Source of the DNA: Candidatus Koribacter versatilis Ellin345
GTDB taxonomy: Bacteria > Acidobacteriota > Terriglobia > Terriglobales > Acidobacteriaceae
Assembly (NCBI RefSeq): GCF_000014005.1
Contig: NC_008009.1
Location: 1,612,001-1,676,000 of the forward strand
Direction of reading: 5' to 3'
DNA length: 64,000 nt
Position 1 is the stretch's first letter, and every line of letters begins with the position of its first letter. A program made the translations under genes and the position numbers. The notes beneath the pieces were generated by a model, which saw only the letters and a program-made list of their open reading frames with translations, was not told the origin of the DNA and searched no databases. This document shows positions 7,813 through 27,730 of this stretch, piece by piece.

Positions 7813-7860
7813 GTTTGCCTCGTTCATCCCGCTGCTGATGCCGCGGGCTACTCTCAAAAC

Positions 7861-8352
7861 CTACTCGGCTGTTCCGGCGCTTTGATCGTCGTTGGTTGGA
7901 TCATCGTCCAACGCGGCGAAGTTGTTAATTACTTCCTGATCTTTGTCGAGCGTCTGAAGGTCCTGGATTACCGGATCGGATGCGACGACCTGCGGATTGC
8001 CAGGGTTCTGCTTATCGCGAATCTGAATGGTGCCGTAAACACCTGCGCCGATTACGAGTGCGAGTGCCGCCGCGGCGGCCATCGCGGGCTTGCGGAACCA
8101 GTCGAAGATCGAGACTTTCTTCTCCGCGGCTTTGGCCTTCTCCTCACGGAGCAGGGCCTTTAGCCGCGTATCGAAGAACGGCGATGGCTCAGGTGCTTGC
8201 CACTCGTCCATCAACGCCATCGTCTGTTTCATCTCTGCCAGCTCAGCCGTGCACGCGGGACAGCCCGTGAGATGCTGGTGCACCTCGGGCGCCAGCGGAG
8301 CTTCCGCTGTCATTAACTCGAACATTTGCTCTCGAATCTCTTCACACTTCAT
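7861..8352 (-). CDS. Zinc-binding (ZAS) membrane anti-sigma factor
   Basis: 163-residue anti-sigma factor for the sigma factor encoded 8 nt upstream. The N-terminal ZAS domain has Cys3 and the motif His27-x3-Cys31-x2-Cys34, a zinc site that in characterised relatives lies at the sigma-binding interface. A single membrane segment covers about residues 90-110 (MAAAAALALVIGAGVYG), so the sigma-binding part is cytoplasmic and the last 50 acidic residues are outside. The membrane topology suggests release by signal-dependent proteolysis or a conformational change. Confidence 0.9.
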   Translation of the reverse strand: MKCEEIREQMFELMTAEAPLAPEVHQHLTGCPACTAELAEMKQTMALMDEWQAPEPSPFFDTRLKALLREEKAKAAEKKVSIFDWFRKPAMAAAAALALVIGAGVYGTIQIRDKQNPGNPQVVASDPVIQDLQTLDKDQEVINNFAALDDDPTNDDQSAGTAE

Positions 8353-8360
8353 ATCAACAC

Positions 8361-8957
8361 CTATAAGTACTGCTTCAAGCTCTCGCGCAAACTTTCATAG
8401 GCGCGGAAGAGTAATGATTTGGTCGCCGACTCGCTCAACTTCAGAACTGCGGCGATCTCTTTGTAATCCATATTCTGATACTTATGCATGAGCACTGCCA
8501 TGCGTTGCCGCTCCGGCAGACCTTCTACTACTTTGCGGATCGCCGTCATCCGTTCGTTGCGGAGGATTTCCTGCTCCACCGTCGGACGGCTGTCCGCGAC
8601 ATCCATTGTGCTCCCGCTCTCTTCGTCTGGCTCGTCGAGGCTTACCTGGGCCTCGGCGCGCTCGTGCTTGGTGTCGCGGGCGTTGTTCACGGCCAGGTTA
8701 GTCGCAATGCGATAAAGCCAGGTAGTGAACTTCGCGCTCGCCTCATAGCTCTCGCGAGAGCGATACACGCGCAAGAATACTTCCTGCGCTAACTCTTCAG
8801 CAGTGGCCTGATTGTGGGTGGTCCGATACATGAAACTGATGATCGGCCGGCGGAACTTATCGACGAGGTAGTCGAAGGCGGCGTCGTCGCCCTGCGCAAC
8901 GCGAAGCATGACTTCTGCGTCGCTCAGTTGCTCCAGCACAACGGGCTCTAATGCCAT
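8361..8957 (-). CDS. ECF sigma-70 factor (RpoE-like)
   Basis: Extracytoplasmic-function sigma factor, 198 residues from ATG 8957 (MALEPVVLEQLSDAEV). An upstream in-frame ATG at 9206 would add 83 residues of non-sigma sequence and is rejected. Region 2 spans roughly residues 27-95 (YLVDKFRRPIISFMYR through FTTWLYRIATNLAVN) and region 4 about 135-190 (LPERQRMAVLMHKYQNMDYK, EIAAVLKLSESATKSLLFRA). It heads the operon with the anti-sigma factor and the DUF3106 protein and probably directs a surface-stress regulon. I found no convincing GGAAC/TC-type autoregulatory promoter just upstream. Confidence 0.93.
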   Translation of the reverse strand: MALEPVVLEQLSDAEVMLRVAQGDDAAFDYLVDKFRRPIISFMYRTTHNQATAEELAQEVFLRVYRSRESYEASAKFTTWLYRIATNLAVNNARDTKHERAEAQVSLDEPDEESGSTMDVADSRPTVEQEILRNERMTAIRKVVEGLPERQRMAVLMHKYQNMDYKEIAAVLKLSESATKSLLFRAYESLRESLKQYL

Positions 8958-9579
8958 TCGTTCACGCTCAGCCGAAAGTTTCCTATCGCGTCCGTCCGCG
9001 TTTCCACGCGGGGCGGCGCTGATACCCGGAAGCCCGCGACTTATGGCAAGACTGCTCACATCAAGATGAACCCAACATGACGGCGAAAGTTTCGCCCTCA
9101 AAAGGGATATCGCGACGTAAACCTTTGTGCCGTCGGCACGTAACCGGGGTGCAGCAGCTCCGGATTCCGGGTATTCGGGAACCGGGGTCGTCTCGCCATT
9201 ATGCACTGCGACAGGGACTTCCGGCGATGGTGCGGCGGGGGAGGAAAACGGCGGGGAACATGGTTCGTTACGGAAGTAGGTGTAAATGATTGTCAGGAAA
9301 GGAACTTACACTTGAGTGCCGGAGAGAGGCCGGATTTGCCGCTAAGGTGGAGGGTAATTTTGTCGCTAATATCCACAAAATAATTGACTTACCTAAGTAA
9401 TGTAGTAAGCTTCTACTCACTTTTTCCCCAGGCTGCAGTGCCGAAGCGGACTGCCTTCCCCCAAGTGCCGCCAGGTGTAGTTCCGTCCCCGAATTTCCCC
9501 AGGGTTTTGCGTTGTCGCAAGTGCAAGTTTTCTCCCTAAGTGTTGCTTGTAGCAGGCTTTTCGGACAGGTGGGGTTTCA
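8958..9579. other. 622-bp divergent intergenic region
   Basis: This gap separates the leftward sigma operon from the rightward barrel gene and contains no convincing gene. Seen in it: an inverted repeat GTGTAA (9280-9285) / TTACAC (9306-9311); a GGAACTT at 9301 that resembles an ECF -35 box but lacks a matching -10; an AT-rich stretch at about 9350-9415 with a possible promoter; and C-rich tracts downstream. No tRNA or known riboswitch core was recognised. Confidence 0.5.
9384..9411 (+). promoter_or_regulatory. Possible sigma-70 promoter for the barrel/cyclase/FecR cluster
   Basis: TTGACT (9384-9389), a 16-nt spacer and TAAGCT (9406-9411) lie in the only AT-rich part of the region upstream of the gene at 9580. 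This would give a leader of about 160 nt. The -10 match is weak. Confidence 0.35.
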
Positions 9580-11421
9580 ATGTCAAAGCTTCTTTGTCTC
9601 CTTTGTAGTGTGCTGCTTGCGGGAACGGCAGCCGCGCAATCGTCGTCCCAGCCACCGCAGTCGCAGTCGCCGACCCAGACTGGTACCGGGCAGCCCTCGG
9701 CTTCGTCTACGGACCCTTTGCAGGCGCAACAGAACCCGTTGAGCACGGCGCAGCGGACGACGGACGCGACCAGCAGCACGCCGAAGAGCACGTTCGACGT
9801 CTCGACGAGTTCGTCGGGCGGTCAGGACCAGATGATGGGCGAGCTCCGGATGATGATCCGGAACACGGAACTTGGCGGCGACACGACGCAGAGTTTCCTG
9901 AGCCCCGGCGCCAACACGTTTGGCGAAGTGAATTTCTTCGAAGACAAGAAATTCCTCACCACGCAACGAATCCAGATCCTCGCCATGGTGCGTGGCACCA
10001 ACGACTACAGCATTGATCCGGAAACCACCAGCCTGCAAAAGGCGTACGTCCGCATCTACGGTCCGCGTGATGAGTACATCGTGGGCGACGCGCTGATGAA
10101 CTTCTCGCGGCTCTCGCTGCAACAGAACATCAAGGGCGTGGCGACGTCATGGAAGCTTGGCGACAAGTGGAAGCTTTCGCTGATCAACGGCATTTACATC
10201 GACCGTTACGGCTCGCTGTACAAGGACGTCCTGTCGCGTCCTTATATGTCGTGGGTAGACGGCGCGCGGCTGGAATACAAGCTGAACAAAAATTCGATCA
10301 TCGGCGCGAACTTCGTGAGCAGCGAAGACAAGACAGATTCGCTGCCCGACCAGCCGGTAGGCTTTGCGCCATGGCCTGCGAGCAACCGCCTTGGGACAGT
10401 GGACGGGCGATTCAATATCAACGGCCTGCGCATCGATTCGGAAATTGCGTATTCATGGACGGACTTCGATAAGCGGCAGTCGAGCAATTGCGAAATCTCC
10501 TGTGACAGCAACCAGCCGGAGCCGGAGCTGGGTTACCAGGGCGATTGGGCAGGACGCGTCGAGGCGATTTACCGTTACCACAAGTTCACATTCCGCGGCG
10601 CCTACGCGCGCTATGAGCCGAACTTCGCGTCGATCCAGGCGCGGCAGATCCCCGATTTGCAGGATATGGTCGCGCGCGTGACCTACGACGTGAATGACTA
10701 CATCACGCTCGATGGCACGGTGCGCCGTGCGAATGACGACCTGAAAGAACAGCTTCCCTACGAGACGCGGCTGCTGGGACCGGAAGCGCGCGTTTCCTTC
10801 CACAACCTGCCGTTTTACACCCGCGGCATTTTCGATGTGGGATATCGCTACCGCGATACGCGTTCGAGCGATAGCGTGTCCGTGAGTCGCACGCTGAGCG
10901 CGCCGTTTGCCGAGTTCACCATGCCGTACCACTCGACCTACTTCAGCATTGGATACGAGCGCCGTGGCGTGACTGATTACGTGCAGCTGGGCGACACCGG
11001 TTACACCAACCGCGTGTACGTGGCTTTCCGCGGGATTTACGACGTGGGCGGCTGGCACTTGAACCCGATCGTGCGCTTTGAACTGGAGCGCCAGTCGCAC
11101 GAGCCGCAATGGCCGGTCAACCCCATCCTGGCGTACGACACCAACCGCTTGAACACGATTGGACTGTTTATAGAAGCGCCGAAGTGGTTCATCGCCGAGA
11201 TGGGCTATCGCAATTCTGACGCGACGCTGTATGGGCCCAACGGATTCAATCGTCCGAGCTACAAGGCAGCGCTGACGTACAAGGTGCGCAACGACCAGAA
11301 CATCCTGCTGATCTTCGGGTTCGAGCGCAACACCAACGACTTTGCCGCGCTACTGCCGTATGACGAACGCGTGTATGGCGTGACGCTGGATTACAAGTTC
11401 GGAAAGAAAGCGCAGCGGTAG
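9580..11421 (+). CDS. Predicted outer-membrane beta-barrel protein, 613 aa
   Basis: Signal peptide at residues 1-20 (MSKLLCLLCSVLLAGTAAAQ), then a low-complexity Ser/Gln/Thr linker to about residue 80. The rest is built of short amphipathic stretches alternating with turns and rich in Tyr, Arg and Asn (ITLDGTVRRANDD, TYFSIGYERRGVTDYVQLGD), ending VTLDYKFGKKAQR. That pattern fits a large outer-membrane barrel, though no named family is recognised. It is followed after 10 nt by the CHASE2 cyclase gene and then by the giant FecR protein, so the three probably form one operon. It may export, anchor or gate something for the giant protein; this is inference. Confidence 0.7.
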   Translation: MSKLLCLLCSVLLAGTAAAQSSSQPPQSQSPTQTGTGQPSASSTDPLQAQQNPLSTAQRTTDATSSTPKSTFDVSTSSSGGQDQMMGELRMMIRNTELGGDTTQSFLSPGANTFGEVNFFEDKKFLTTQRIQILAMVRGTNDYSIDPETTSLQKAYVRIYGPRDEYIVGDALMNFSRLSLQQNIKGVATSWKLGDKWKLSLINGIYIDRYGSLYKDVLSRPYMSWVDGARLEYKLNKNSIIGANFVSSEDKTDSLPDQPVGFAPWPASNRLGTVDGRFNINGLRIDSEIAYSWTDFDKRQSSNCEISCDSNQPEPELGYQGDWAGRVEAIYRYHKFTFRGAYARYEPNFASIQARQIPDLQDMVARVTYDVNDYITLDGTVRRANDDLKEQLPYETRLLGPEARVSFHNLPFYTRGIFDVGYRYRDTRSSDSVSVSRTLSAPFAEFTMPYHSTYFSIGYERRGVTDYVQLGDTGYTNRVYVAFRGIYDVGGWHLNPIVRFELERQSHEPQWPVNPILAYDTNRLNTIGLFIEAPKWFIAEMGYRNSDATLYGPNGFNRPSYKAALTYKVRNDQNILLIFGFERNTNDFAALLPYDERVYGVTLDYKFGKKAQR

Positions 11422-11431
11422 AGATTAAGCC

Positions 11432-13816
11432 ATGATGCACGACGTCAAAAGGATCGCGAAGGTTGTCGCCGTAAAGGCGATGCGCCTGTTCGCGCTCGTT
11501 CCCGCGTGGGAAGTGGATGCGGTAATCGCCGTGGTGGTGACGGCGGGAGCGCTGGCGCTCTACCTGGCGGTAGCGCGGTACCAGGAGCGTACGGGCTTTT
11601 CATTCATCGGGAATATCGAACTACGCTCGCTGGATGCGCGCTTTGAAATGCGTGGCTCCCGACAGACCGATTTGGACATCGTCATCATTGGAGTGGATGA
11701 AAAGACTCTACGGAAGACGGGATATCCGATTCCTCGTCGTGCCTACGCATCATTGGTGAACAAGCTCGCAAGCGCCGGCTGCAAAGTCATCGGATTCGAC
11801 TTGGATTTTCCGACAGCAGAAAACAACTCGGCCCTTGATGTTCTGAACCGGCTGAAGGGGCAGGCTGGCGCGCACACATCGCCGGAGTTCATGAGTGAAA
11901 TCGACAATCAGATCGCGTCCTCAGATAACGACGCTGCGTTCGGCGAAGCCGTAGCTAAGGCAGGAAACGTCATTCTCGGGCACGTCTTTCTCGACAGCCA
12001 GCAGAAGGCGCAGTCGTTGTCTTCTCAGGAAGCGGAAGACTATTACAAGCTCCTCTGGGACCATCCGTTTCCGCAGACCCATCCGTATCCGGACGGAGCG
12101 AACTTCTCGCCTGCCGATGCGTTCATGCGACAAAAGGGCAACACGGTCTTCGGAGTCGAGCCGAACATTGCGAAAATCGCCGAACGCGCGAAGTCGATTG
12201 GTTATTTGGATACGGTGTTCGACGCCGACGGTACGATTCGGCGAGTACCGCTCCTGATCTACTACAAAGACCTGGATTTCGTGCCCCCTATCGAAATCGA
12301 AATGTTGCGTTATCTCGAGAATATCTCGATTGACGATTCAAACGCATTCATCGGGCAGTCTGGCGTCCATGAAATCAGACTGGGGGCGCACGCCATCCAT
12401 CCTGCCAAGGACGGCACGGCCCTCATCAACTATGCCGGTCCTTACAAGACGTATCCGCACTATTCGCTGGCCGATGTCCTGACGGGAGAAGTCTCGCCAG
12501 CGACCTTCCATAACAAGATTGTGTTCGTGGGTCCCACGGCAAAAGGCATGGGCGATATGCGTATCACGCCATTTTCCACGCCGGAAGCCGCTTACATGGG
12601 AGTCGAAATCCACGCCAACGTTTTGGATAACCTCCTGCACAGCGAAAATCCGCGCCGTGGTTTCCTGAAGCGCGGAACGCGTGAAGAGACGGTCGACCTT
12701 GTCGTGATCCTGTTGTTTGGCATAGGCGGCGGCATTCTCTTCGCGAAGACGCCTCCGTTGCGCGCCGGCATCGCGGCTCTGTCAATTCTTGGTGGTTTTG
12801 CAGCGGTCGCGTTCATTGTTTTTGCTCTGTTCGGCATGTGGATTTACGTTGTGATTCCCGCCGCAACCGTCGTCATCGACTACGCTGCGATTTCCAGCTA
12901 CCGCATGATCTTTGAAGAGCGCGAAAAGCGGAAAGTCCGCAAGACTTTCGAGCGTTACGTCGCGCCGGGCGTCATCAAGCTGATCGAAGAGAATCCTGAA
13001 AAGTATTTCCGTACTGGCGGCGAGATGCGCGAGTTGACGGTGATGTTCTCGGACATCCGCGGATTCACCGAGATCTCTGAAGGCCTGACGCCGGATGAAC
13101 TGGTGCATTTGCTCAATCGCTACCTCGGCGACATGACGGGCGTGATCTTCGAATCCCTCGGCACCCTCGATAAGTACATTGGCGACGCCATCATGGCGTT
13201 CTGGGGATCGCCGGTGCCGCAGTCGGACCATGCGTATCGCGCGTGCGAGACCGCACTGAAGATGAGCGTTGCCCTCAACGATCTGAACCAGCGACTGACG
13301 CATGAAGGCAAGAAGACGCTGAAGATCGGCATTGGCATTAACAGTGGCCAGATGAACGTCGGCAACATGGGTTCCGAATTCCGTTTCGCCTGGACGGTGA
13401 TGGGCGACAACGTGAACCTCGCCTCTCGTTTGGAAGGCCAGACCAAGGCGTACAAGACGATGCGGCTGATTACGGAATTCACCTATGAAGAGGTGAAGGA
13501 CCAGATGGTCTGCCGCCAACTCGATGTGATCCGCGTACAGGGCAAGGAAAAGCCCGTTGCCATTTACGAGCTGATGGATTTCGTTCGCAGCAAGGACCAA
13601 TACGAAGACTTGCTGGCGCACTTCAACGCTGCGCGCGATGCCTATATCCGGCAGTCGTGGAGCGAGGCGATCACATTGTTTGAAGGGCTGCTGGAGCGGT
13701 ATCCGGAAGATGGGCCGTCGATCGTGCTCCTGGATCGTTGCAAAGAGTTTCGAGTTTCGCCGCCATCGCGCGATTGGGATGGCGTTTATACGACGAAGAA
13801 GGAAGCAGTGCATTAA
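11432..13816 (+). CDS. CHASE2-domain membrane adenylate cyclase (class III)
   Basis: 794-residue cyclase. A membrane segment at 29-47 is followed by a CHASE2 extracytoplasmic sensor domain (about 60-400), three membrane segments (about 420-495) and a cytoplasmic class III cyclase domain (about 530-710). Metal-binding Asp residues lie in FSDIRGFT and YIGDAIMAF. Lys in TLDKYIGDA fits adenine recognition, and a Thr in WTVMGDNVNLASRLE at the second selectivity position fits the IIIb subgroup. A TPR-like tail of about 80 residues follows. The product is therefore probably cAMP. The sensor faces the same compartment as the giant FecR protein encoded 81 nt downstream. Confidence 0.93.
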   Translation: MMHDVKRIAKVVAVKAMRLFALVPAWEVDAVIAVVVTAGALALYLAVARYQERTGFSFIGNIELRSLDARFEMRGSRQTDLDIVIIGVDEKTLRKTGYPIPRRAYASLVNKLASAGCKVIGFDLDFPTAENNSALDVLNRLKGQAGAHTSPEFMSEIDNQIASSDNDAAFGEAVAKAGNVILGHVFLDSQQKAQSLSSQEAEDYYKLLWDHPFPQTHPYPDGANFSPADAFMRQKGNTVFGVEPNIAKIAERAKSIGYLDTVFDADGTIRRVPLLIYYKDLDFVPPIEIEMLRYLENISIDDSNAFIGQSGVHEIRLGAHAIHPAKDGTALINYAGPYKTYPHYSLADVLTGEVSPATFHNKIVFVGPTAKGMGDMRITPFSTPEAAYMGVEIHANVLDNLLHSENPRRGFLKRGTREETVDLVVILLFGIGGGILFAKTPPLRAGIAALSILGGFAAVAFIVFALFGMWIYVVIPAATVVIDYAAISSYRMIFEEREKRKVRKTFERYVAPGVIKLIEENPEKYFRTGGEMRELTVMFSDIRGFTEISEGLTPDELVHLLNRYLGDMTGVIFESLGTLDKYIGDAIMAFWGSPVPQSDHAYRACETALKMSVALNDLNQRLTHEGKKTLKIGIGINSGQMNVGNMGSEFRFAWTVMGDNVNLASRLEGQTKAYKTMRLITEFTYEEVKDQMVCRQLDVIRVQGKEKPVAIYELMDFVRSKDQYEDLLAHFNAARDAYIRQSWSEAITLFEGLLERYPEDGPSIVLLDRCKEFRVSPPSRDWDGVYTTKKEAVH

Positions 13817-13897
13817 GACCCGAGGCCCGGTCGTACGACGACCTGGCCCATGCAAGTAGCTGCTGATTTGAAGTTGAAGAGACAGAGGGTGTCATCC

Positions 13898-16800
13898 ATG
13901 AATCGTTGGTCGCGAATCGTTTGTTCCGTCATCGCTGTATCTGGAATGTGTGTCCCCGCAATTGCCGGTGACGCGCCCACACCCGGCACCAAGGCCGGAA
14001 GTGTGACCGCGCTGCTGCCGGTAGCGCACGTGAGCCGCGTGGTGAACAAGGCGAACGTGGTCAAGGACGCCGCGAAGGGCGACGACGTTTATTGGAACGA
14101 CGTGGTGCGCACAGAAAAAGGCGGACGCGCCCGCATTACGCTCAACGACCAATCCATCCTCTCGCTGGGTTCGCAGGCCGAACTCCACGTCATTAAGCAC
14201 GACGCTAAAACGCAGCAGACCCAACTCGAATTGACTTACGGCCGTGTGCGCGCGGAAGTCACCACCGTCACCAAGGATGGCGGCAGCTTTGAAGTGAAGA
14301 CCCCGACGGCAGTCGCCGGCGTTATCGGCACTACGTTCGGCGCGGAATCTACGGTTGGCGAATCGAAGTTCCTTTGCATGGCGGGCATGGTCAACGTCCG
14401 CAGCGCCGACCCGGCAGTTCCGGGCGTGACGAGTTGCGAACCGGGCAAGGTGATTACGATCGGCGCAGGCAAAGCTCCCGTAAAGCGCAACGCAACGCCC
14501 GAGGAGTATCAGAAGTGGTATGCCGACACGGAAACTGCGGTGATCACGGGAATGTGGCCGTGGGCGCTGGTTCCGGGCGCAGCGGTGGATGCCAAGGCGA
14601 CCGGAAACCACCTGGATGGCGTGACCTCGGTCAGTTCTTCGGATTCGTCCATCGCGGTAACGTTGAAGCCTTCGACGGCTGCGAATTCAGTGGGCCTGCA
14701 CGTCGCAGTAAGCGCCACCACCAAGCCCGGCGCGTACATCTTTACCTTTAAGAAGACGGGCGGCAGCGAAGCTTCCACCGTCTTCCTCGTGCTCGGAACT
14801 CCGGGCTCGATGGACGACATTGATTCGATGTTGAACGACTACCTCGAGACGATCGAGGAAGAGCGCCACGCTGCACTCGCCGCATTGAATGCAGTTCAGC
14901 TGCAGTTGCAGCAATCGGCCGATATGGCCAACGGCGCGCTCACTGCCGCGAACACAAATGCGAAGCCGCCTCTCGATTTGACGAAGACGTCTGCCGACAT
15001 CCAGAACAACGCCAGCAATCTGCAGGCAAACCTCGCCGACGCGCAATCGAAGGTCAATGCTGCGTTCGATGCAGCTAAGAAAGACTTCACTAATCGCTTC
15101 AACACTGCCGTTGCGGCCTTGAAGACGCGCAACGCGAGCGGCAAGCCGGATGATGAATTCCGTTCGTCCGTGTCGGCTGCTTTCTCCGATGTGAACGCGA
15201 CCGCGAACAGTGCCGTCGCCAGCCTGGTAGATGCGTTACAGGACCAGGCAACGCAACTCGCGGCTTTGATCGCAGAGCTTGAGCAGCAAGAGATGGCGCT
15301 GATCGCCGCGAACACGCCGGCGAACACGATTCCTGCGCAGGCGGTTGAGCAGGCGTACGCCGCAACCTTCGCCGCCGGTCCGCTTGCCTCTGGAGGCGGT
15401 CCGTACAAATGGGAGGTCTGCGATGGGGCATACAAATCAACCAGCGCAGGCAAGGCAATTCCTGCTGGAGCCCCGGGTTGCAATGCGCTGCCCGGCTATG
15501 TGAGTGCCACTCCCTCGTTCACGGTGGATACCTGCGATCTGAAGCCCGCAAGCTACGTGGTGCGTTTCACCAACGGCGACAAGGCTTATGAGAGCACGCT
15601 GGGCATCATCAAACCGGCGTACGACGATCCGCTCACGCGTCTCCAGGGCATGGCGCAAGCGTATGACGCGCTGCTACCCGACATTTTCATGGAGTACTTC
15701 GACCCGGTGAACTTCCCGGGCTACTCGCAGTTGTCCGAGAACATTCGTCGCACGATGCAGAGCCTGACCAGCATGAACATCCACCTCATCGTGGATGATA
15801 TTGCGGTCAACTGTAACGAGGCGAGCGTTCGCGCGGAGTGGCAGGAGAATTACAGCTTCCCGCAGTCGCCGAAGAACATTCAAAAAACGACAGGCGAAGA
15901 GATCAACGTAAAGTTCCTGCGCACGCCGGGTAAAGGCTGGTACATCACCGAACTCAACGGCGACAACGGAACGGTGCAGGGCATTCCGCCGGGACCGGTG
16001 TTGACCGATGCGCCGACGGCGCAGCTCACGGTGTTGAATGTGAACGTCGCAATCTCGCCGACGAGCGGAACGGTTCGCCGCGCCGCCGCGAGCGCGGTGC
16101 CCACGGTTCCTCTCGGGCCGGTGAGTTTCACGGCAACGGTGAGCAATACCGGCAAAGCCGATGTCACGCTGCCCGTGGCAGTGCAGTTCTTCTTGCTCGA
16201 CGACAAAGGCACGCAACTCGATCTCCAGAACTCGACACTGCCGCCTCCGCTGAAAGCGGGTACGTCGGCGGACATCAACCAGGTCCTGACGATTCCGTCG
16301 TCGGTACCGGGCGGAGCGGTCCTCACCATCGGTGTACGTGTGAACCCGAACTGTACGATTCCGGTGCAGCGTTGCGACTCCAGCAATCTGACGAAGTTGC
16401 AGGTGGAAGTCGGCGCAGTGGATATGTCGCCGACGAAGATCGCGGCAGTTTCGCCGCTGGTTGGAACGGTTGCGGGAGAAGTGCGCGTGACCGTGAGCAA
16501 CCTTGGCAAACAGGCATCGCCGGCGACGACCGGGAACCTGGTGCTCACTAGCCCGTTGTTCTCGGGCAGCGTGAAGGCCGATATTCCTGCGATTCCGGCG
16601 GGTGGTGCAGTGAACGTGGACATTCACACGCCGGCGCTGCCGAACGTTTCCGGTTCGCAGAATTTCACTGCGACGATTACTCCGCCAGTGACGGGCGACA
16701 TTGACACCGGCGACAAGACGATCACTTCCGCGCTACCGGTTGCGACCGCGGTTGATATTGCGATTCTGAGCGTTACGCCAACGGGCTCGCTGGTTGGCAC

Positions 16801-19800
16801 ATCGAACGCGACGTTCAACGTGCAACTGAAGAACCTCGGCGCGGCGACCTCGGTGGGGAACGACGGCGATCTGGCCCTGACGGAAGGCACAGGTACTCCG
16901 GTTGCGCTGGGTGCGGGCGATATCCCGAACATCGCGCCGGGAGCAACGGCCACAGTGGCGATTTCGGTGGCTCTGCCCAACATCAGCGGCAGCACGACAT
17001 TCACGGCGCACATCGCGACACCGATTACTTTTGATACGAACGCGGCCAACGACACGCTTGCGGTTTCGATCCCGGTAACGACCGGTGTGGATATCCAGGT
17101 CGTGAGCATTACGCCTACCGGCGGACTGGTGGGCACGTCGCCGGCGACGTTCAACGTAGTGTTGAAGAACCTGGGTGGCGCGACTTCGGCTGCAGTTGCG
17201 TCGGATTTGACGGTGAGCGATACCAGTGGCGCCGCGATCCTGCTCGGCACGTCCGACATTCCATCCATCGGTCCAGGCGCGAGCGTGACCGTGCCGGTGA
17301 CCACCACGCTGCCGAACATCAGCGGCACAACGAAGTTCACGGCACAAATCGTTACACCGATCCCGGGCGACACTGACTCGGCGAACGACACGCTGACGGT
17401 CTCATTGCCAGTCGGCGCGGGCGTGGACATCCAGGTGGCGGCGATCTCGAGTTCTTCCTCGCTGGTGGAAAGCCAAGCGGGGACGATCAATGTCACACTG
17501 AAGAACCTTGGCGGATCTGCGTCCACGGCTACGACAGGGAACTTGATCCTGACGGGTCCCTCGGGCCCGGCGCTAGCAACCGGCGACATCCCGTCCATCG
17601 CGGCGGGTAGTTCGACCGTTGTATCGCTGGCGATCACGGTGCCTGCGTTGTCAGGCGCGACGAACTTCACGGCGAAGATCAGTCCGGCGGTTCCGAACGA
17701 TGGAAACCCGGCTAACGATACGTTGACCCAGAGCCTCACCATTCAGCCGGCGGTTGATATTCAAGTTGTGAGCATCACCGGTTCTGGCCTTGTCGAAGGC
17801 CAGCCGGCAACGCTCAGCGTGACGCTGAAGAACCTTGGTGCAGGCACGTCGGCGGCGACGACCGGCAACCTCAAACTGAGCGGGCCGTCGGGTTCGCTGG
17901 GAACGGCAAGCATCCCCGCAATTGGACCGGGAGCTTCGACCACGATTCCAATCGCGGTCACACTGCCGGTTGCGACCGGCGCGACGAGCTTCACGGCAAC
18001 GATCAGCCCGGCGGTTCCGCTGGATACTGACTCGGCAAACGATACATTAACCACGAGCCTCACGCTGGCGACCGCCGTGGACATCCAGGTTGTTTCGCTG
18101 ACGAACGGTTCGGTCATCACGGAAAACCAGCCGAGCACGTTCACCGTCACGTTGAAAAACAACGGCGCAGTCGCGTCGTCGGCGACGACGGGCAACCTGT
18201 TGTTGAGCGGTCCGTCTGGTCCGGCGCTTGGATCGGCGAATATTCCGTCCATCGCTGCCGGGACTTCAATCACGGTGCCGATCACGGTGACGATCCCGAC
18301 CCTTACCGGCGCGAACAACTTTACGGCCGCGATCAGTCCGGCGGTGCCGCTCGATCTGAATGCGGCCAACGACTCGCTGACGGTAAGCTTCACGGTTCTG
18401 TCGAGCTACGTTGATCTCAAGATGACGGGGCTGAGCGTTTACGGAGGCGGCTCACTGAGCTCCGGCAATGCTTATGTGCTGACCATCTCGGTCCAAAACA
18501 ATGGCAATCTTGCCTCTGGCACGGGCGACACACTGTCTTGCGGAATCACCGGGCCGGGTTTCAGCGGTACGGTACCGCTGACACTTTCGACCACGGCGTT
18601 GGTCTCGCTGGCGCCAGGCGGCACCACGATGACCTCACCGAGCTTCACCATGCCGAAGAACCTGGCTGGTTCGGACACCATCACTTGTACCGCGAGTGAA
18701 GATCCGAACGAGCCATCAGGCCTTGTCGCCGACAACACCAGGACCTTTGGAGTTACGGTGAACACAAATCTCAACCTGCACTTCAGCGGAACGCTGACGC
18801 CGCCAGCCGCGTTGCAGATGGGCAGCAGCGCGACGCTCTCCGTCACGGTTACGAACGATGGCCCAGATGACGCACCGGCCGCGAGCTACAGCTTGCAGGC
18901 GGGCATGGCGACCTTCAGCAACATTGGAACGCTGACGGGCACGAACATCGTTGCGATTCCGGCGACGACTTCGCACACGTATGCGCTGCCGATCACCGTC
19001 CCGCAACTTGGCACGGCGCCGCAGGACGTCAGCAACGTGACCGGCCAAGTGAACATCATTGATGGCACCGGCCTGACAGAAACCAATACGACCGACAACG
19101 TGATCACCACGACGTCGTTCCGCGTTCTCGACTTCACCCTCACCACGAGCGCTACGACTATGCTCGCAGTGACGGGACGCACGCTGAATGGCCAGGCGTA
19201 TGTGGTTGCGCCGACGACGTACATCGGACTCTTCCCATCGTTTGCCGTGACTCCGACCGGAGTGCCTACGGGCATCACGGTGAATAAGAGTGGCGGCATG
19301 ACCGGCACGGTGACGGCTGCGGCAGGGAACTACAGCGCGACCTTCAGTGGCAGTAGCGCAGGAGTGACGCACGCTGCCAGCGCAGCATTGCCATTCACTG
19401 TGCACGGCGAAATCAACTTCTCGCTGACCTCAGCGATCAACTTGACGCAGACGGGCACGGGCGTAGTGTTGGCCGGGACGCTCAATGGCGGCCTGCCGAC
19501 GATCGCCGTCAGCACGCCGGCACCTCCAACCGGCATCACGATCGCGGGTCCGGCATCCATCAACGTGGGTGCGGTTCCGGCGACGATCAATGCCTGGACG
19601 CTTTCTGCCGATGCGACTTCAACCCTCGGCGCGGCGAGCATTAATCTCACCGCCACGGATAGTGGCGTGACCAATGCCTTCGAAGCGGTGCCTGGCAATA
19701 CGGTCACGCTGCCGGTGGCCTACACCGTCGGTGGACTGTCGAACTTCGTTATTCAATCGGCGACGTTCGTAGGTCACGGTGCGGGTCCGAACTATGAGGG

Positions 19801-22800
19801 CGCGCAGGCACTGCAGGTGGGCGAAGCTGCTCAAATGCAAGTGGTAGTGAAGAACATTGGAGATGCCGACCCGCCGGCGGGCGCGACGGTTACGGTAAAT
19901 ATCGTTTGCTCCGCAAGCCCAATCTGCAACCTGGGCGGAACCAGCACCGCGGTCGCGGCACCCTTGAAAGGCGCCACTGCGACCTTGACGTTCTCGGTCG
20001 GCACGGTGAGCGATGCCGCAGCTACGGGATATCCGGGCACGGTCACGGTGACTCCGACCGGAGCAACCGAATTAAACTCGGGCGACAATACACTTGCGAT
20101 GTCGTGGGACGTAGTGGACTTCGCAGTTGTGGCTCCGGCCTCGAATCCCACTTATCCAACGCAGAACATGCCGTTGAGCAAGACGAGCTTTGTTTATTAC
20201 CAACTCACGGAAGCTGGCGGCACGACGGCATTCGCGATTCCAGTGGCAGTGACTTCGAGCGTCACCGGCGTTACATTGCCGGGCACGGTCAACGTGTCGC
20301 CGGGTACCGACCAGCAAGCGAACATTGCGGTGAGTGCCAGCACTTCATCGCCAAACGGTACTTTGGTCTTCACGGGCACGAACCATGGCGTGAAGCGGAC
20401 GTACTCGCAACCGGTGGATTACTACACGGCGGCGATCGTCAGCACCACGCTGTTCTCAAATAGCTCCGCGCAGCCGTTGACCATTCCGCTCAATAATTCG
20501 AGCGGCGCGACGGTCGAATTCCAGATTCGTGGCAATTTCAACAACGCTGGAACGTCTGGGGCACCGTTGACGCTGGTTAATCCGATCGGGACTGCGATTA
20601 CATTCCACTCGGGAACCACTGTCGTTTCGGCAGGGGACAACTTCGGCGTGATCGTGGCTGACCCGGCGACGACCACCATTGCTCCGCCGCGTAACTTCGA
20701 CATCCAGGCCGCGATCCCCGCGACGATCCCGCAGGATACGCCCACGTATTCGCTGTGGGTTACCACAGTCGGGACTTCGAATCTGGCGGTGAGTTCGGTG
20801 GCGGTGCATAACACCGCGATTTCCATCGACTCCAAGCAGCCGTGGCTCGCGGGTGAAACCATCGCCTTCGACTTCACAGTGACCAACAACGGTTCGGCCG
20901 CGTCGCTGGGGGGCGAGACACTGCAGGCGTTCTTCAACAACACCGCGGTAGCGAGTACCGGGGTTCCAAACGCGACCGGGACCGTTCCTGCATTGGGTCC
21001 GGGCGCGAGCACGACTATAACGGTCAACCTCACGGCGCCTGACGCAGCACTTGCGGCAACTTCAACGTTGTCTGCGAGCGTGGTGCAGGACCCGCCAAAC
21101 AAGGCAAATCCGGTGTTTACCAGCGCGCCGCTGGACAGTTCAGACTGGGGAATCTTCCTCATTCGTAGCGGCGGAAGCGACGCCTCGCCGCTGCAAATCA
21201 TCTTTACGCCGGGCGCCGGTTACTTCGGACAATCGCCCTTCCAATTGCGCATCCCGTCATATGGCGGCTCGGTATTCCGCAACGGCGCGCCGAACGTGAG
21301 CAGTACGGCCATCGATCCCAACATCACGCAGAGTATTGCCCAAACTTCGGGCGCCATAAGCGGAAACGTGAATGAAACGCTCAGAAACACTGCCGCCACG
21401 AGCGACTTCTACTATGGCCAGGTGTCGGCTACGTATGGGAATGTGACTCGCAGTGCGACAGTGCACATCCAGTGGGCGGGCGGCGGCGCTGCGGGTGCGG
21501 TGAGCTTAACCTCGCCGGCCAACAACATTTCGCCGTCGACGGGAACGCCTCCCACGACGATTCAGATCAACGGTTACGTCGCCGAGTCCGAGGCCATCAC
21601 CGGCAACAACGGGGCTTCGTGTACGCCTAGTGGAACGACGACGTGCCAGTTCGTATTGACCTTCACGCCGGATGCATCAGCGACGTCCTACGGGTCCAAC
21701 GGCCTCGGGGCGGTGATGACGTATGGCACGGCGACCACGTACCAGTTCACGGCCAACATCAATCCGGCGAACGGCGTGCTGACAACCGGTTCCGGCAACA
21801 TCGTCGCCAGCGTAACCGGTGCGCAGCCAACGTCAGCCGCGAAGCGCGCGGGCGCGGTGAAGAGCAACAGCGACCCGATCGGAACGCAGCAGTTCAACGT
21901 TGCGTTCAACGTCGGCGACATCAACGTCACCTTCCCGAGTTGCGTCGCGGTTCCGCCGGGCACCAGCCTTACGGTCCCGCTCACGTGGGCTCCGACCGGT
22001 GGCTTCAATGCGCCGCAGGTGCTCTATGAGTGGTTCGACCAAAACCTCAATCCGCTGCCGAGTTCGGTGATTACACCGGGGACTGCGACGGTCTCGCCGA
22101 GTGGCACGATCAACTTCAAGGTAACGAATAGTTCGGGCGGCACGAACACAACTGGACTCACGTACTACTTCGGCATCGAGCTGTTCAACAGCCAGGGCCA
22201 GGTCGGCGTGCAGCCTAAGTACATCCCGGTTACGTTCGACCTCACGTCTACGGGCGGCTACTGCCCGGCGACGTCACCGACCGGGACGGTGCGTGGAGGC
22301 GGAACTGCCAAGCCTGTCGCTTATGCCTCCGCTCCGACGTTGATTACCGGCTTCTACGGCAAGAGCCACGCGGGTGACTACGCATCGAAGGCCAGCGCGG
22401 CGAAGAAGACCCTGGCGCTGTTGCCAGACGTCCAGCTCTCAGCGAAAGACGTAACTTTCTCGCCGTCGCTACCGAAGAGCGGCGATACCCTCGACGTTCG
22501 CTTCCGCCTGAATAACACAGGCGCGGTGGACGCAAAGCAGGTACCGCTGGCTCTCGTAGTCAACGGCGTCACAGTCAGTAGCGATACCTTTGACCTGAAG
22601 GCCGGGGCGTCGTCACTGGGGGCGTTGCACTGGAACCTCGGTAAGCAGCCTGTGCCGGCAAACAAGGCTTCGGGGAACACCACGGCGCAACTCGTGGTGG
22701 ATCCGCAGCACACGGTGCCGCAGGCAAGCACGGTAAACAAGACTGCAATGTTGTCGCATCTCGTCCTGCCGGGGACTGGTCCGGGTGTCGTGATTTCGCC

Positions 22801-23263
22801 GACCGGTTCTTCGTCGAAGATCGCACACTTCGAAGTCTCTGACGGCGGATGCGCGGGCTTGCGCTTCGCGGGCGGAGCTGGCGGCTGTGGCTCAGCGGAT
22901 GCGGAGATCACGATTTCCGACCTCGCTGCCGGGAAGTATGTTCTCAGCGGCCGCAACGGCATTGCCGACCTCGGTGTGGGCAGGACGGATGCGTCGAATG
23001 CATCGTTCGGTTCGGAGGTGGCGATCGTCGCAGGCCACACGTACGCGGTGCAGTTGTCCGGCAAGAGCGTGGGGCTGTTCACGGTGCAGAAGATCCGCAA
23101 TCCGAAGCAGCTCTCGATCAAGTCAGATAAGGTCTTCAACCGTGGCGTGAAGGTACCGGTGGGCAAGGGAAGCGGCGCGGCAACGACCGGCGATGTATCC
23201 GGCGGCGCAGCGAAGAAGTCCGACGCTTTCGTGTACTTCGACGTAGCCTACTCGGTGCAGTAA
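13898..23263 (+). CDS. Giant secreted FecR-CARDB repeat protein, 3,121 aa
   Basis: ATG 13898 is chosen over an in-frame ATG 16 codons upstream because it has a GAGGG site and puts the signal peptide (MNRWSRIVCSVIAVSGMCVP) at the N-terminus. Domains in order: a FecR beta domain at about residues 35-190 (RVVNKANVV, WNDVVRTEKGGRARITLNDQ, TPTAVAGVIGTTF); an Ala/Gln-rich coiled coil at about 305-470; then tandem CARDB-like Ig modules, six with a 108-112-residue period beginning VDIQVVS at 841, 952, 1064, 1176, 1286 and 1394. Further diverged Ig-like and YDG-like segments run to about 2780, and another CARDB-like module (VQLSAKDVTFSPSLPKSGDT) lies near 2850. Likely a surface or extracellular adhesin/receptor. 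A hairpin follows the stop. Confidence 0.88.
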   Translation: MNRWSRIVCSVIAVSGMCVPAIAGDAPTPGTKAGSVTALLPVAHVSRVVNKANVVKDAAKGDDVYWNDVVRTEKGGRARITLNDQSILSLGSQAELHVIKHDAKTQQTQLELTYGRVRAEVTTVTKDGGSFEVKTPTAVAGVIGTTFGAESTVGESKFLCMAGMVNVRSADPAVPGVTSCEPGKVITIGAGKAPVKRNATPEEYQKWYADTETAVITGMWPWALVPGAAVDAKATGNHLDGVTSVSSSDSSIAVTLKPSTAANSVGLHVAVSATTKPGAYIFTFKKTGGSEASTVFLVLGTPGSMDDIDSMLNDYLETIEEERHAALAALNAVQLQLQQSADMANGALTAANTNAKPPLDLTKTSADIQNNASNLQANLADAQSKVNAAFDAAKKDFTNRFNTAVAALKTRNASGKPDDEFRSSVSAAFSDVNATANSAVASLVDALQDQATQLAALIAELEQQEMALIAANTPANTIPAQAVEQAYAATFAAGPLASGGGPYKWEVCDGAYKSTSAGKAIPAGAPGCNALPGYVSATPSFTVDTCDLKPASYVVRFTNGDKAYESTLGIIKPAYDDPLTRLQGMAQAYDALLPDIFMEYFDPVNFPGYSQLSENIRRTMQSLTSMNIHLIVDDIAVNCNEASVRAEWQENYSFPQSPKNIQKTTGEEINVKFLRTPGKGWYITELNGDNGTVQGIPPGPVLTDAPTAQLTVLNVNVAISPTSGTVRRAAASAVPTVPLGPVSFTATVSNTGKADVTLPVAVQFFLLDDKGTQLDLQNSTLPPPLKAGTSADINQVLTIPSSVPGGAVLTIGVRVNPNCTIPVQRCDSSNLTKLQVEVGAVDMSPTKIAAVSPLVGTVAGEVRVTVSNLGKQASPATTGNLVLTSPLFSGSVKADIPAIPAGGAVNVDIHTPALPNVSGSQNFTATITPPVTGDIDTGDKTITSALPVATAVDIAILSVTPTGSLVGTSNATFNVQLKNLGAATSVGNDGDLALTEGTGTPVALGAGDIPNIAPGATATVAISVALPNISGSTTFTAHIATPITFDTNAANDTLAVSIPVTTGVDIQVVSITPTGGLVGTSPATFNVVLKNLGGATSAAVASDLTVSDTSGAAILLGTSDIPSIGPGASVTVPVTTTLPNISGTTKFTAQIVTPIPGDTDSANDTLTVSLPVGAGVDIQVAAISSSSSLVESQAGTINVTLKNLGGSASTATTGNLILTGPSGPALATGDIPSIAAGSSTVVSLAITVPALSGATNFTAKISPAVPNDGNPANDTLTQSLTIQPAVDIQVVSITGSGLVEGQPATLSVTLKNLGAGTSAATTGNLKLSGPSGSLGTASIPAIGPGASTTIPIAVTLPVATGATSFTATISPAVPLDTDSANDTLTTSLTLATAVDIQVVSLTNGSVITENQPSTFTVTLKNNGAVASSATTGNLLLSGPSGPALGSANIPSIAAGTSITVPITVTIPTLTGANNFTAAISPAVPLDLNAANDSLTVSFTVLSSYVDLKMTGLSVYGGGSLSSGNAYVLTISVQNNGNLASGTGDTLSCGITGPGFSGTVPLTLSTTALVSLAPGGTTMTSPSFTMPKNLAGSDTITCTASEDPNEPSGLVADNTRTFGVTVNTNLNLHFSGTLTPPAALQMGSSATLSVTVTNDGPDDAPAASYSLQAGMATFSNIGTLTGTNIVAIPATTSHTYALPITVPQLGTAPQDVSNVTGQVNIIDGTGLTETNTTDNVITTTSFRVLDFTLTTSATTMLAVTGRTLNGQAYVVAPTTYIGLFPSFAVTPTGVPTGITVNKSGGMTGTVTAAAGNYSATFSGSSAGVTHAASAALPFTVHGEINFSLTSAINLTQTGTGVVLAGTLNGGLPTIAVSTPAPPTGITIAGPASINVGAVPATINAWTLSADATSTLGAASINLTATDSGVTNAFEAVPGNTVTLPVAYTVGGLSNFVIQSATFVGHGAGPNYEGAQALQVGEAAQMQVVVKNIGDADPPAGATVTVNIVCSASPICNLGGTSTAVAAPLKGATATLTFSVGTVSDAAATGYPGTVTVTPTGATELNSGDNTLAMSWDVVDFAVVAPASNPTYPTQNMPLSKTSFVYYQLTEAGGTTAFAIPVAVTSSVTGVTLPGTVNVSPGTDQQANIAVSASTSSPNGTLVFTGTNHGVKRTYSQPVDYYTAAIVSTTLFSNSSAQPLTIPLNNSSGATVEFQIRGNFNNAGTSGAPLTLVNPIGTAITFHSGTTVVSAGDNFGVIVADPATTTIAPPRNFDIQAAIPATIPQDTPTYSLWVTTVGTSNLAVSSVAVHNTAISIDSKQPWLAGETIAFDFTVTNNGSAASLGGETLQAFFNNTAVASTGVPNATGTVPALGPGASTTITVNLTAPDAALAATSTLSASVVQDPPNKANPVFTSAPLDSSDWGIFLIRSGGSDASPLQIIFTPGAGYFGQSPFQLRIPSYGGSVFRNGAPNVSSTAIDPNITQSIAQTSGAISGNVNETLRNTAATSDFYYGQVSATYGNVTRSATVHIQWAGGGAAGAVSLTSPANNISPSTGTPPTTIQINGYVAESEAITGNNGASCTPSGTTTCQFVLTFTPDASATSYGSNGLGAVMTYGTATTYQFTANINPANGVLTTGSGNIVASVTGAQPTSAAKRAGAVKSNSDPIGTQQFNVAFNVGDINVTFPSCVAVPPGTSLTVPLTWAPTGGFNAPQVLYEWFDQNLNPLPSSVITPGTATVSPSGTINFKVTNSSGGTNTTGLTYYFGIELFNSQGQVGVQPKYIPVTFDLTSTGGYCPATSPTGTVRGGGTAKPVAYASAPTLITGFYGKSHAGDYASKASAAKKTLALLPDVQLSAKDVTFSPSLPKSGDTLDVRFRLNNTGAVDAKQVPLALVVNGVTVSSDTFDLKAGASSLGALHWNLGKQPVPANKASGNTTAQLVVDPQHTVPQASTVNKTAMLSHLVLPGTGPGVVISPTGSSSKIAHFEVSDGGCAGLRFAGGAGGCGSADAEITISDLAAGKYVLSGRNGIADLGVGRTDASNASFGSEVAIVAGHTYAVQLSGKSVGLFTVQKIRNPKQLSIKSDKVFNRGVKVPVGKGSGAATTGDVSGGAAKKSDAFVYFDVAYSVQ
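16418..18409 (+). repeat. Six tandem CARDB-like coding repeats of about 333 nt
   Basis: Repeat starts (codon for Val in VD) fall at 16418, 16751, 17087, 17423, 17753 and 18077, with the next related unit at 18410. The periods are 333, 336, 336, 330, 324 and 333 nt. Each unit has the core VxLKNLG-A-S-AATTGNL and ends with I/VP-D-D-ANDTLT. The units near 17087-18410 are the most alike. Confidence 0.85.
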
Positions 23264-23268
23264 AATTC

Positions 23269-23303
23269 AGCGGCGCGGGCACAAACTCGCGCCGCTTTCG
23301 TTC
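23269..23303 (+). terminator. Hairpin after the giant gene
   Basis: AGCGGCGCG (23269-23277) pairs with CGCGCCGCT (23288-23296) across a 10-nt loop. Only TTCGTTCC follows, so termination may be partial. Confidence 0.6.
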
Positions 23304-23347
23304 CAACCAACCAACGTCTGACGGGCTAAACTGCCTGGGGAGTGACC

Positions 23348-23902
23348 ATGCGAAAGTTCGCCTTCATCCTGACCTTGCTGTTCGTCGCCGGCGCGGCCTT
23401 TGCGCAAACCGATACCCAGCAGAGTTCGTCGTCGCAGCAAACCCAGACGCAATCCCAAACGCCGCCACCCGACCAGCCCAAAGACAAGAAGAAGGACAAA
23501 AAGAAGAAGGGCCAGGACGACGCGATCAATGCCGAGGAGTTCTCCGATCGCGTGACCGACAACGTGATGCGCGACCTGAAGGACGGCCTGGAAGGCCACA
23601 TGGAGCGCCTTGTCCTATCGGTCTTCGACGATAACCAGATGGATGGCTATCTCCAGTTCGAAGACCAGATCGAGCAATTTTTCAATAAGTACGACGCCTT
23701 CCGCATTCACTACCGCATCATTCAGAACAGCGTGGAAGGCGGGAAGGGAATCGCCGTCGTCGAGATGCAGATGGAAGCCGTCCCGCGCACGGGCAGCGCC
23801 CCACAGTTGCGTCGTGATCAGCAGATCCGTTTCGAACTCGAGCGCGGCAAAAAAGGCTGGAAGATTGTGGACTTCCGCCCGCGCGATTTCTTCATGCCGT
23901 AA
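23348..23902 (+). CDS. Exported hypothetical protein, NTF2/SnoaL-like, 184 aa
   Basis: ATG 23348 has a GGGGAG site 5 nt upstream and starts a signal peptide (MRKFAFILTLLFVAGAAFAQ); the GTG two codons earlier lies within that site. A Gln/Ser/Thr linker and a Lys/Asp-rich patch follow. The C-terminal 110 residues begin with DRVTDNVMRDLKDGLEGHM and end RFELERGKKGWKIVDFRPRDF. The pattern of helices followed by a curved sheet resembles a calcium/calmodulin kinase II association or SnoaL-like fold, but this is a structural guess. The stop abuts the stop of the convergent larB gene. Confidence 0.7.
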   Translation: MRKFAFILTLLFVAGAAFAQTDTQQSSSSQQTQTQSQTPPPDQPKDKKKDKKKKGQDDAINAEEFSDRVTDNVMRDLKDGLEGHMERLVLSVFDDNQMDGYLQFEDQIEQFFNKYDAFRIHYRIIQNSVEGGKGIAVVEMQMEAVPRTGSAPQLRRDQQIRFELERGKKGWKIVDFRPRDFFMP

Positions 23903-24649
23903 CTAGAGGCGGTTGATCATCGAGGCGACATAGCCTGCACCGAAACCGTTATCAATATTCACGACGGTCACATTCGACGCGCACGAATTCAGCATGCCCA
24001 GCAGCGCGGCCAGTCCGCCGAACGCCGCGCCGTAACCTACGCTGGTGGGCACGGCAATTACCGGAACCGAAGTCAATCCACCGACAACACTTGGCAACGC
24101 GCCTTCCATGCCGGCGCACACGATGAGCACCCGCGCGCCCATCAGCACCTCGCGGCGGGCCAGCAGGCGGTGAATGCCTGCGACGCCGACGTCGAAAACA
24201 TGCTGCACTTCGTTGCCCATCAGTTCGGCAGTGACGACCGCTTCTTCCGCAACCGGGATGTCGCTGGTTCCCGCTGAGACAACGACAATTGTTCCTTTGC
24301 CATAAATCTTGTTGTCCTGGCGCAGGAAGACCGCGCGTGCGAGTTCGTTGTATTCGGCTTTCTTGAACTTCTTCTTCACGGCGCGAAATTGCTCTTCCGT
24401 CGCACGCGTAGCGAGAACATTGTTGCCGCGCTTCGCCAGCGAAGCGAAGATCTTTGCCATGTGGTCCGGACGCTTGCCGGGGCCAAAGATGACCTCCGCC
24501 ATGCCCACGCGCACCGCGCGATGATGATCTACATTGGCGAAGCCGAGGTCTTCAAAAGGGAGATGGCGCAACTGCTGCACGGCATCGTCGGTCGTGAGAT
24601 CGCCCGATTTCACTTGCTGGAAGAGCTTTTTGATTGCTTCTGCGTTCAT
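23903..24649 (-). CDS. larB: LarB, nickel-pincer cofactor carboxylase/hydrolase (PurE-like)
   Basis: 248 residues. LarB carboxylates and hydrolyses nicotinic acid adenine dinucleotide in making the nickel-pincer nucleotide cofactor of lactate racemase-type enzymes. The C-terminal PurE-like domain shows VVSAGTSDIPVAEEAVVTA, GVAGIHRLL, CAGMEGALPSVVGGL, VPTSVGYGAAFGG and NIDNGFGAGYVA. The N-terminal part (DHHRAVRVGMAEVIFGPGKRP) is typical of LarB. No larA, larC or larE lies in the window, so the other cofactor steps must be encoded elsewhere or this copy works alone. Confidence 0.93.
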   Translation of the reverse strand: MNAEAIKKLFQQVKSGDLTTDDAVQQLRHLPFEDLGFANVDHHRAVRVGMAEVIFGPGKRPDHMAKIFASLAKRGNNVLATRATEEQFRAVKKKFKKAEYNELARAVFLRQDNKIYGKGTIVVVSAGTSDIPVAEEAVVTAELMGNEVQHVFDVGVAGIHRLLARREVLMGARVLIVCAGMEGALPSVVGGLTSVPVIAVPTSVGYGAAFGGLAALLGMLNSCASNVTVVNIDNGFGAGYVASMINRL

Positions 24650-24669
24650 GATTTCCGGAGTTCAGGGTA

Positions 24670-27289: not shown

Positions 27290-27730
27290 TCACGAAGGTT
27301 GGTTGGGGAATCTTTCGAAGCCTTTGCGCAGCACTCCCTGCGTGGCGGGACGCAGACCGAAATCGTCAATCTCCTGCGGCCTAATCCAGCGGGCGTCGCT
27401 CACATCGGTTGCGGCTTCCAGCTCGCCGCCCGTCACGCGACAGAGATAATCCACCAGCACGTAGTGATACTGGCAGCGACCGTCGGCGTCGCGCCAGATG
27501 CTGTCGAACAACTCCAGTACCTCGCCGGGCTCGACAACCAAGCCAGTCTCTTCGAGGACTTCTCGCGCGACCGCATCGACGAGCTTCTCGCCGAGTTCAA
27601 CGAGACCGCCGGGGATGGACCACTCGCCTTTAAGCGGTTCGGTGGCGCGGCGCACAATCAACGCGCGGCCTTCACGGATCACCACGCCACCAACGCCCAA
27701 TAGCGGACGCTCAGGATATTCACGCGACAT
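27290..27730 (-). CDS. Nudix hydrolase, ADP-ribose pyrophosphatase-like
   Basis: 146-residue Nudix protein. The full Nudix box G-x5-E-x7-RE-x-x-EE-x-G is present (GLVELGEKLVDAVAREVLEE, then TGL), supplying the metal-binding Glu residues. The N-terminus RPLLGVGGVVIREGRALIVRR and the late RWIRPQEIDDFGLRPAT are like small ADP-ribose or NTP-cleaning Nudix enzymes. Substrate cannot be set from sequence. It starts 9 nt after the stop of the upstream DinB-like gene on the same strand and is probably co-transcribed with it. Confidence 0.9.
   Translation of the reverse strand: MSREYPERPLLGVGGVVIREGRALIVRRATEPLKGEWSIPGGLVELGEKLVDAVAREVLEETGLVVEPGEVLELFDSIWRDADGRCQYHYVLVDYLCRVTGGELEAATDVSDARWIRPQEIDDFGLRPATQGVLRKGFERFPNQPS

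Follow-up and report, generated by a model that had tools for sequence, protein, structure and literature searches.

A predicted outer-membrane barrel, a CHASE2 adenylate cyclase and a giant FecR/CARDB protein are encoded in one recurring cluster of Candidatus Koribacter versatilis and may form a trans-envelope cAMP module

The window analysed here, a 64-kb stretch of the 5,650,368-base single-contig genome of Candidatus Koribacter versatilis Ellin345 (G000 in our comparisons), contains three genes in a row that share one direction and correspond to the open reading frames 9580-11421, 11432-13816 and 13850-23263, all on the + strand. A first-pass annotation of this DNA had read the row as a barrel, a cyclase with a CHASE2 sensor and an exported giant with an early FecR domain, separated by gaps of 10 and 81 nt. 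This layout was confirmed, and the gaps are correct provided that the giant starts at the ATG at 13898 (3,121 amino acids) and not at the less likely ATG at 13850 (3,137 amino acids). We favoured the start at 13898 because the likely start methionine of the relatives aligns near it and an AGAGGG motif lies upstream. A conserved fourth gene (23342-23902) and a hairpin between it and the giant gene had been overlooked.

Gene 1 (9580-11421, + strand) encodes a 613-residue protein made up of a signal peptide, a Q/S/T/P-rich linker and a predicted outer-membrane barrel of ~530 residues, and its four relatives are 49-52% identical to it. Beyond the N-terminal hydrophobic segment no further membrane helix was predicted. 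Amphipathic strands are mildly over-represented in the protein (19 versus a shuffle mean of 14.4, with 23 of 300 shuffles as high), and in a ranking of 266 proteins by this property four members of the family came at positions 3, 7, 27 and 34. No Pfam family exceeded the cut-off on gene 1 and no NCBIfam match was obtained; among the five family members, one other than the gene 1 product of the window gave a weak Porin_4 match (E value of 0.0023) and one gave a T7_gp14 match (E value of 0.0083). A search of the barrel profile against solved structures returned a weak match that made no sense (best E value of 0.26), and the AlphaFold2 model built from the single sequence was unusable (pLDDT of 29.5). 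The TonB receptor family was absent from gene 1 and its relatives in Pfam, and a POTRA domain or TpsB-type transporter was found neither by Pfam on gene 1 or the four relatives nor by NCBIfam on gene 1; two-partner secretion was rejected as an assignment on the latter ground. The hydrophobic start, the lack of a further predicted membrane helix, the strand excess and the weak Porin_4 match speak for a barrel. We hold the prediction with moderate confidence and regard it as the least secure part of the observation.

Gene 2 (11432-13816, + strand) encodes the CHASE2 cyclase of 794 residues, in which the CHASE2 sensor domain (residues 45-431, 11564-12724; Pfam PF05226, E value of 5e-56) is followed by a cyclase domain of class III (residues 532-708, 13025-13555; Guanylate_cyc, Pfam PF00211, E value of 6.1e-24). 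Hydrophobic segments at residues 19-37, 420-438 and 457-475 set the CHASE2 domain between transmembrane segments, with the cyclase domain at the C terminus. Alignment to 6fht and 2w01 showed that D541, D585, K581, T655, N662 and R666 are all present; D541 and D585 are presumably the metal residues, and K581 and T655 the base residues. K581 aligns with a lysine of 6fht, a named adenylate cyclase, and with a glutamate of 2w01, whose entry title reads adenylate cyclase and which we take to be a guanylate cyclase. With lysine and not glutamate at the base-selecting place, the sequence of gene 2 qualifies it as a CHASE2-class III adenylate cyclase, and its product would be cAMP. The genome encodes proteins that could answer cAMP, with 16 matches to cNMP-binding proteins, 15 of them over the cut-off.

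The giant protein (gene 3, 13898-23263, + strand) begins with a signal-peptide-like stretch, followed by the FecR domain (14099-14392; Pfam E value of 2.8e-18, residues 84-181 of the frame from 13850). Further along the same strand lie an alanine-rich and probably helical stretch recognised by eye (approximately 14801-15349), a domain related by profile cross-hits to the gene 4 product (approximately 15617-15994, at about residues 590-715), an array of CARDB/Ig-like repeats (approximately 16418-19129) whose length differs between genomes, and a conserved C-terminal block (22427-23260) defined by alignment of the relatives. Pfam detected CARDB with an E value of 8.5e-56 in 9 stretches, and the DNA of the giant gene contained no tandem repeats. 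The giants range from 2,200 to 3,100 residues, and their best-conserved part is the first 200 residues including FecR, at 52-59% identity, compared with 23-49% in the other well-covered blocks (>100 residues aligned). The profile of this N terminus found only a weak match without sense among solved structures (best E value of 0.064). Matches to the Leptospira families Lsa33, LipL45 and Lsa19 of NCBIfam cover the FecR region and lie far below the cut-off, and we discarded them. An outer-membrane barrel and FecR also cooperate in envelope signalling in the FecA-FecR-FecI system, where FecR is the inner-membrane anti-sigma partner; in contrast, the giant is a signal-peptide protein and its output would be a cyclase. 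Assignment to a FecIR sigma/anti-sigma system was rejected, given the signal-peptide-like start, no other Pfam match ahead of FecR and no TonB receptor family.

Gene 4 (23342-23902, + strand) encodes 186 residues comprising a signal peptide, a lysine-rich linker and a domain of ~120 residues. Five relatives share 44-50% identity with it and are located 3′ of the giant gene in G012 and G022 and directly 3′ of the cyclase gene in G139, G103 and G109; in G042 a more distant relative stands 3′ of the cyclase gene, and others stand elsewhere, for example in G141. The single-sequence model had a helix-helix-four strands topology (pLDDT of 64), for which Foldseek placed NTF2/cystatin-like folds best (E value of 9.8e-4). 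Since the TM score was only about 0.35, we use the name NTF2-like tentatively, for the giant's related domain as well. Against solved structures, the gene 4 profile yielded a weak match without sense (best E value of 0.076).

The hairpin (23269-23296, + strand) lies just 3′ of the stop codon of the giant gene and is followed by UUCGUUCC. The 82-nt stretch that contains it folds with a z score of −3.79, and none of 200 shuffles was equally stable. We call it no more than terminator-like because its tail is T-poor and because it was absent from the list of the terminator scan. In G012 and G022, the gap between the giant gene and gene 4 also contains hairpins, of different sequence as judged by eye. 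A scan of 9200-24700 for sigma-70-like promoters gave no candidate that could serve the block as a whole and none within it; the sole match (one, versus a shuffle mean of 4.3) lies at 23238-23266, on the giant's stop codon. In view of the hairpin after the giant gene, gene 4 may be partly separate from a unit made up of genes 1 to 3, and we consider that genes 1 to 3 are probably a single transcription unit ended or damped at the hairpin. By eye, the gap between the cyclase and giant genes (13817-13897) and its equivalents in L057 and L058 also look hairpin-capable.

Several features surround the cluster. Downstream lie an AIR-carboxylase-like, LarB-like gene (23903-24649) and a NUDIX-like gene (27290-27730), and relatives of both recur around the cluster or the cyclase orthologue in several genomes. 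On the opposite side, divergent − strand genes (6904-9206) encode an ECF sigma factor (8361-9206), a protein with a weak zf-HC2 match that is possibly an anti-sigma factor, and a DUF3106 protein; a link of the cluster to this operon was rejected, as no such sigma gene stands beside the barrel gene in L057-L060. The GC skew of the window is about +0.13 to +0.16 at 1-8 kb, then declines past about 0 and is negative beyond 40 kb; its cumulative maximum near 36-40 kb possibly marks a replichore switch. A search for a dif-like site in connection with this change gave 0 matches to the one pattern used.

The recurrence of the gene set was examined in 150 genomes of the order and 297 of the phylum. 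Homologues of gene 1 were found in five genomes of the order sample, the window's own included (G000, G012, G022, G139 and G141), and in three of the phylum sample, all three already among the five. Every one of the five barrel genes lies directly upstream of a CHASE2 cyclase gene, with 150-164 bp between the two matches. The complete series of barrel, cyclase, giant and gene 4 occurs in the same order in three of the five (G000, G012 and G022). The giant gene of G139 stands alone on a different contig; in G141, whose contig stops within the cyclase gene, no giant was found. Recurrent linkage in relatives was the first of the tests that the first-pass annotation had set for its proposal beforehand; the linkage recurs, and in addition the type of FecR tracks the type of CHASE2.

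CHASE2 was detected in 35 of the 150 genomes by 53 matches, which represent 52 genes, one being split over two contigs (according to the CHASE2 tree, G079:C146 and G079:C219 are one long-clade gene cut by contig ends). We inspected the neighbourhoods of all 53 matches over at most 20 kb (up to ~10 kb a side), and some of these stretches were shortened by contig ends. A FecR gene on the same strand was present in the stretch for 10 of the 17 genes of the long-cyclase clade and for all 10 CHASE2 histidine kinases, and for none of the 15 short cyclases, the 3 protein kinases and the 7 genes with no recognised output. As all 15 short CHASE2 cyclases stand without a FecR gene nearby, CHASE2 does not need FecR in general. 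The cyclase classes were assigned by length, except that the contig-cut gene of G141 and G139:C21 were placed by hand, both borne out by the CHASE2 tree. In G148, one of the 10 linked cases among the long cyclases, FecR lies 7.2 kb from the cyclase, with two genes of 1198 and 1020 codons between them (L072, 1349-11363). Fusions of CHASE2 to a protein kinase domain, with no FecR beside them, were seen in L062 (by Pfam) and in L071 and L073 (by profile).

Phylogenies of the two domains proved to be matched by type. In the CHASE2 tree, which has 48 rows since 5 of the 53 matches were missed by the profile, the long cyclases come together in a single group (18 rows, support of 99/95) and the kinases in another (10 rows, 94/81). 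In the FecR tree (41 rows; several branches are long), the ten FecRs linked to kinases group together (83/76), and the cyclase-type FecRs occupy a separate branch (28 rows, 88/89) that includes L136, a FecR of the K. versatilis genome linked to neither. The four giants constitute one clade (96/86) among the cyclase-type FecRs, and nearest to it are short FecRs of G012, G022 and G141 (7 rows, 96/91). The FecR and CHASE2 distances, uncorrected for kinship, correlated over 20 pairs with r = 0.948 (0 of 5000 permutations as high), over the 10 cyclase pairs alone with r = 0.791 (1 of 5000) and over the 10 kinase pairs alone with r = 0.945 (0 of 5000). Kinship inflates these values, yet cyclase and kinase types remain separate even within individual genomes, namely G000, G066 and G125, each of which holds both kinds of linked pair.

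The association extends beyond adjacent genes. Defined as a match of at least 105 bits to the N-terminal profile of the giants (the next match scored 36), cyclase-type FecR occurs in 19 of the 150 genomes, comprising all 17 that have a long-clade cyclase versus 2 of the 133 others (G100 and G144; Fisher's P of 1.6e-20, uncorrected for kinship). In 7 of these 17 genomes, with G079 and G141 limited by contig ends, no FecR gene was seen next to the cyclase gene, and simple neighbourhood is therefore not the whole reason for the co-occurrence. In G000 and in G139 no cyclase-type FecR other than the giant was found; G012 and G022 have a short one as well, which could be the real partner there. Outside the order, FecR lies near 3 of 8 named relatives of gene 2 (L011, L012 and L016, all from Gammaproteobacteria), and in the stretches around the remaining 5, some of them truncated, the profile saw no FecR. 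Among eleven stretches with FecR in trans (L117-L127), only L120, L121 and L127 have conserved neighbours in common, besides FecR and antisense frames. Collectively, these comparisons make FecR a genomically well supported partner of CHASE2.

The first-pass annotation had noted that FecR and CHASE2 genes adjoin in other bacteria, and this is in print. In Campylobacterota, a cluster of a CHASE2 adenylate cyclase, a phosphodiesterase, a FecR-domain outer membrane protein and a TPR protein was proposed to act in one pathway; unlike the present locus, its available description includes neither a giant CARDB protein nor a separate barrel gene (PMC9239204). The Burkholderia BiofilmReg operon encodes a response regulator, a LysM-FecR protein, a CHASE2 histidine kinase and a DUF4136 protein, so that an exported FecR-domain protein again adjoins a CHASE2 sensor protein, but the output is a kinase and FecR is fused to LysM and not to a giant repeat protein (PMC5192318). 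Magnetospirillum MtxA, an exported protein with an Ig-like domain, adjoins a CHASE2 cyclase in an operon and could be deleted without clear phenotype; it has only 313 residues, and the paper nowhere mentions FecR (PMC4439547). In Sinorhizobium meliloti, genetic evidence showed that the outer-membrane barrel NsrA is required together with the CHASE2 cyclases CyaD1, CyaD2 and CyaK for cAMP signalling (PMC7529298, PMC13001267). Gene 1 may be likened to NsrA by role, as a barrel and CHASE2 cyclases share one cAMP pathway there; however, the FecR-domain protein of that pathway, SMc02177, belongs to the Clr regulon as a target and is not needed for perception (PMC5498481), and no giant is described in the accessible parts of these three papers. 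Our literature search in open papers turned up neither an experimental test of FecR-CHASE2 binding nor a comparable giant, and nothing relevant on FecR with CARDB or on FecR in K. versatilis. Clusters that pair FecR with CHASE2 have thus been published before, as has the NsrA pathway with its dependence on a barrel; what is new is that the FecR partner is fused into a giant repeat protein and comes with a dedicated barrel gene upstream.

An exported FecR-domain protein is encoded here with a CHASE2 protein, and we favour a trans-envelope cAMP module of the FecR-CHASE2 kind, with the giant as the FecR partner and the barrel as outer-membrane receptor. We put the probability of this reading at roughly one half; it was lowered because the SMc02177 result is adverse. 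In the proposed module, an exported FecR-domain partner would bind the periplasmic CHASE2 domain and hold the cyclase on or off. In this lineage, the partner would be the N-terminal part of the giant, whose chain proceeds from FecR through an Ig-like part, the helical stretch, the NTF2-like domain and the CARDB array to the conserved end. The barrel encoded upstream of the cyclase would supply the outer-membrane receptor, as NsrA does for the Sinorhizobium cyclases. Either a ligand or a contact event, whether at the outer membrane or on the giant itself, would alter how FecR and CHASE2 meet; the signal would run inward, the cytoplasmic class III domain would make cAMP, and CRP-like proteins would answer. 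The secreted gene 4 product, which has a domain in common with the giant, may modulate it. The meeting of the FecR part with the CHASE2 sensor, suggested in the first-pass annotation, is in our view well supported as a partnership of genes, and as physical contact it is an extrapolation from that partnership.

Three other readings were weighed against the proposed module. The most credible of them, and still unlikely in our judgement, accepts the FecR-CHASE2 pair and lets it read the state of the periplasm or cell wall, with the giant serving as a periplasmic scaffold or matrix and nothing reaching outside. Short FecRs (frames of ~250-330 residues, too short for repeats) indeed accompany cyclases of this clade in related genera, and the Burkholderia relative carries the peptidoglycan-binding LysM (PMC5192318); this reading leaves the dedicated barrel gene and the size of the 2,200-3,100-residue giants unexplained. 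Improbable, in our view, is the export or anchor port for the giant that the first-pass annotation had seen in the barrel, in the manner of two-partner systems, with a cyclase that senses export success or is a mere neighbour. Barrel, cyclase and giant do occur together in three of the five barrel genomes, and the repeats of an exported giant, if stretched, would be far longer than the periplasm is wide. Against this, the barrel adjoins the cyclase in all five and shares a cluster with the giant in only the three, that of G139 lying elsewhere, and the barrel family lacks a POTRA or TpsB-like match. An NsrA-like receptor role fits gene 1 better, by analogy.

We gave least credence to the view that the genes are neighbours by shared descent, or that the FecR protein stands at the output end of the cAMP pathway and not at its input. 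The four barrel relatives come from the same family, and the NUDIX- and LarB-like genes travel with the locus too, which agrees with the former; SMc02177, a cAMP-Clr target dispensable for perception (PMC5498481), is a precedent for the latter. However, the type of FecR matches that of CHASE2 from genus to genus, also where the genes are unlinked, and adjacency of cyclase and FecR genes is also found in the Gammaproteobacteria (L011, L012 and L016) and, in print, in Campylobacterota (PMC9239204).

The first-pass annotation, partly supported as a whole, had gone further and proposed a cell-surface system. In its strongest form, a surface giant with its own FecR transmitter, threaded or anchored through the dedicated barrel, would directly switch the inner-membrane adenylate cyclase; we see an outside chance of this, about as slim as that of the periplasmic reading or a shade better. 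If it were true, a single step would convert contact up to ~100 nm away, a distance estimated from the length of the protein, into cAMP.

For the sensor domain CHASE2, the Burkholderia work of 2016 described the inputs as unknown (PMC5192318). The type-matched phylogenies of FecR and CHASE2 suggest a FecR-domain protein as the immediate partner in two CHASE2 classes, the long cyclases and the histidine kinases, while the short cyclases do without. The 'unknown ligand' of CHASE2 would thereby become a testable protein pair, which the K. versatilis locus would join to an outer-membrane protein and to a giant, possibly surface, protein.
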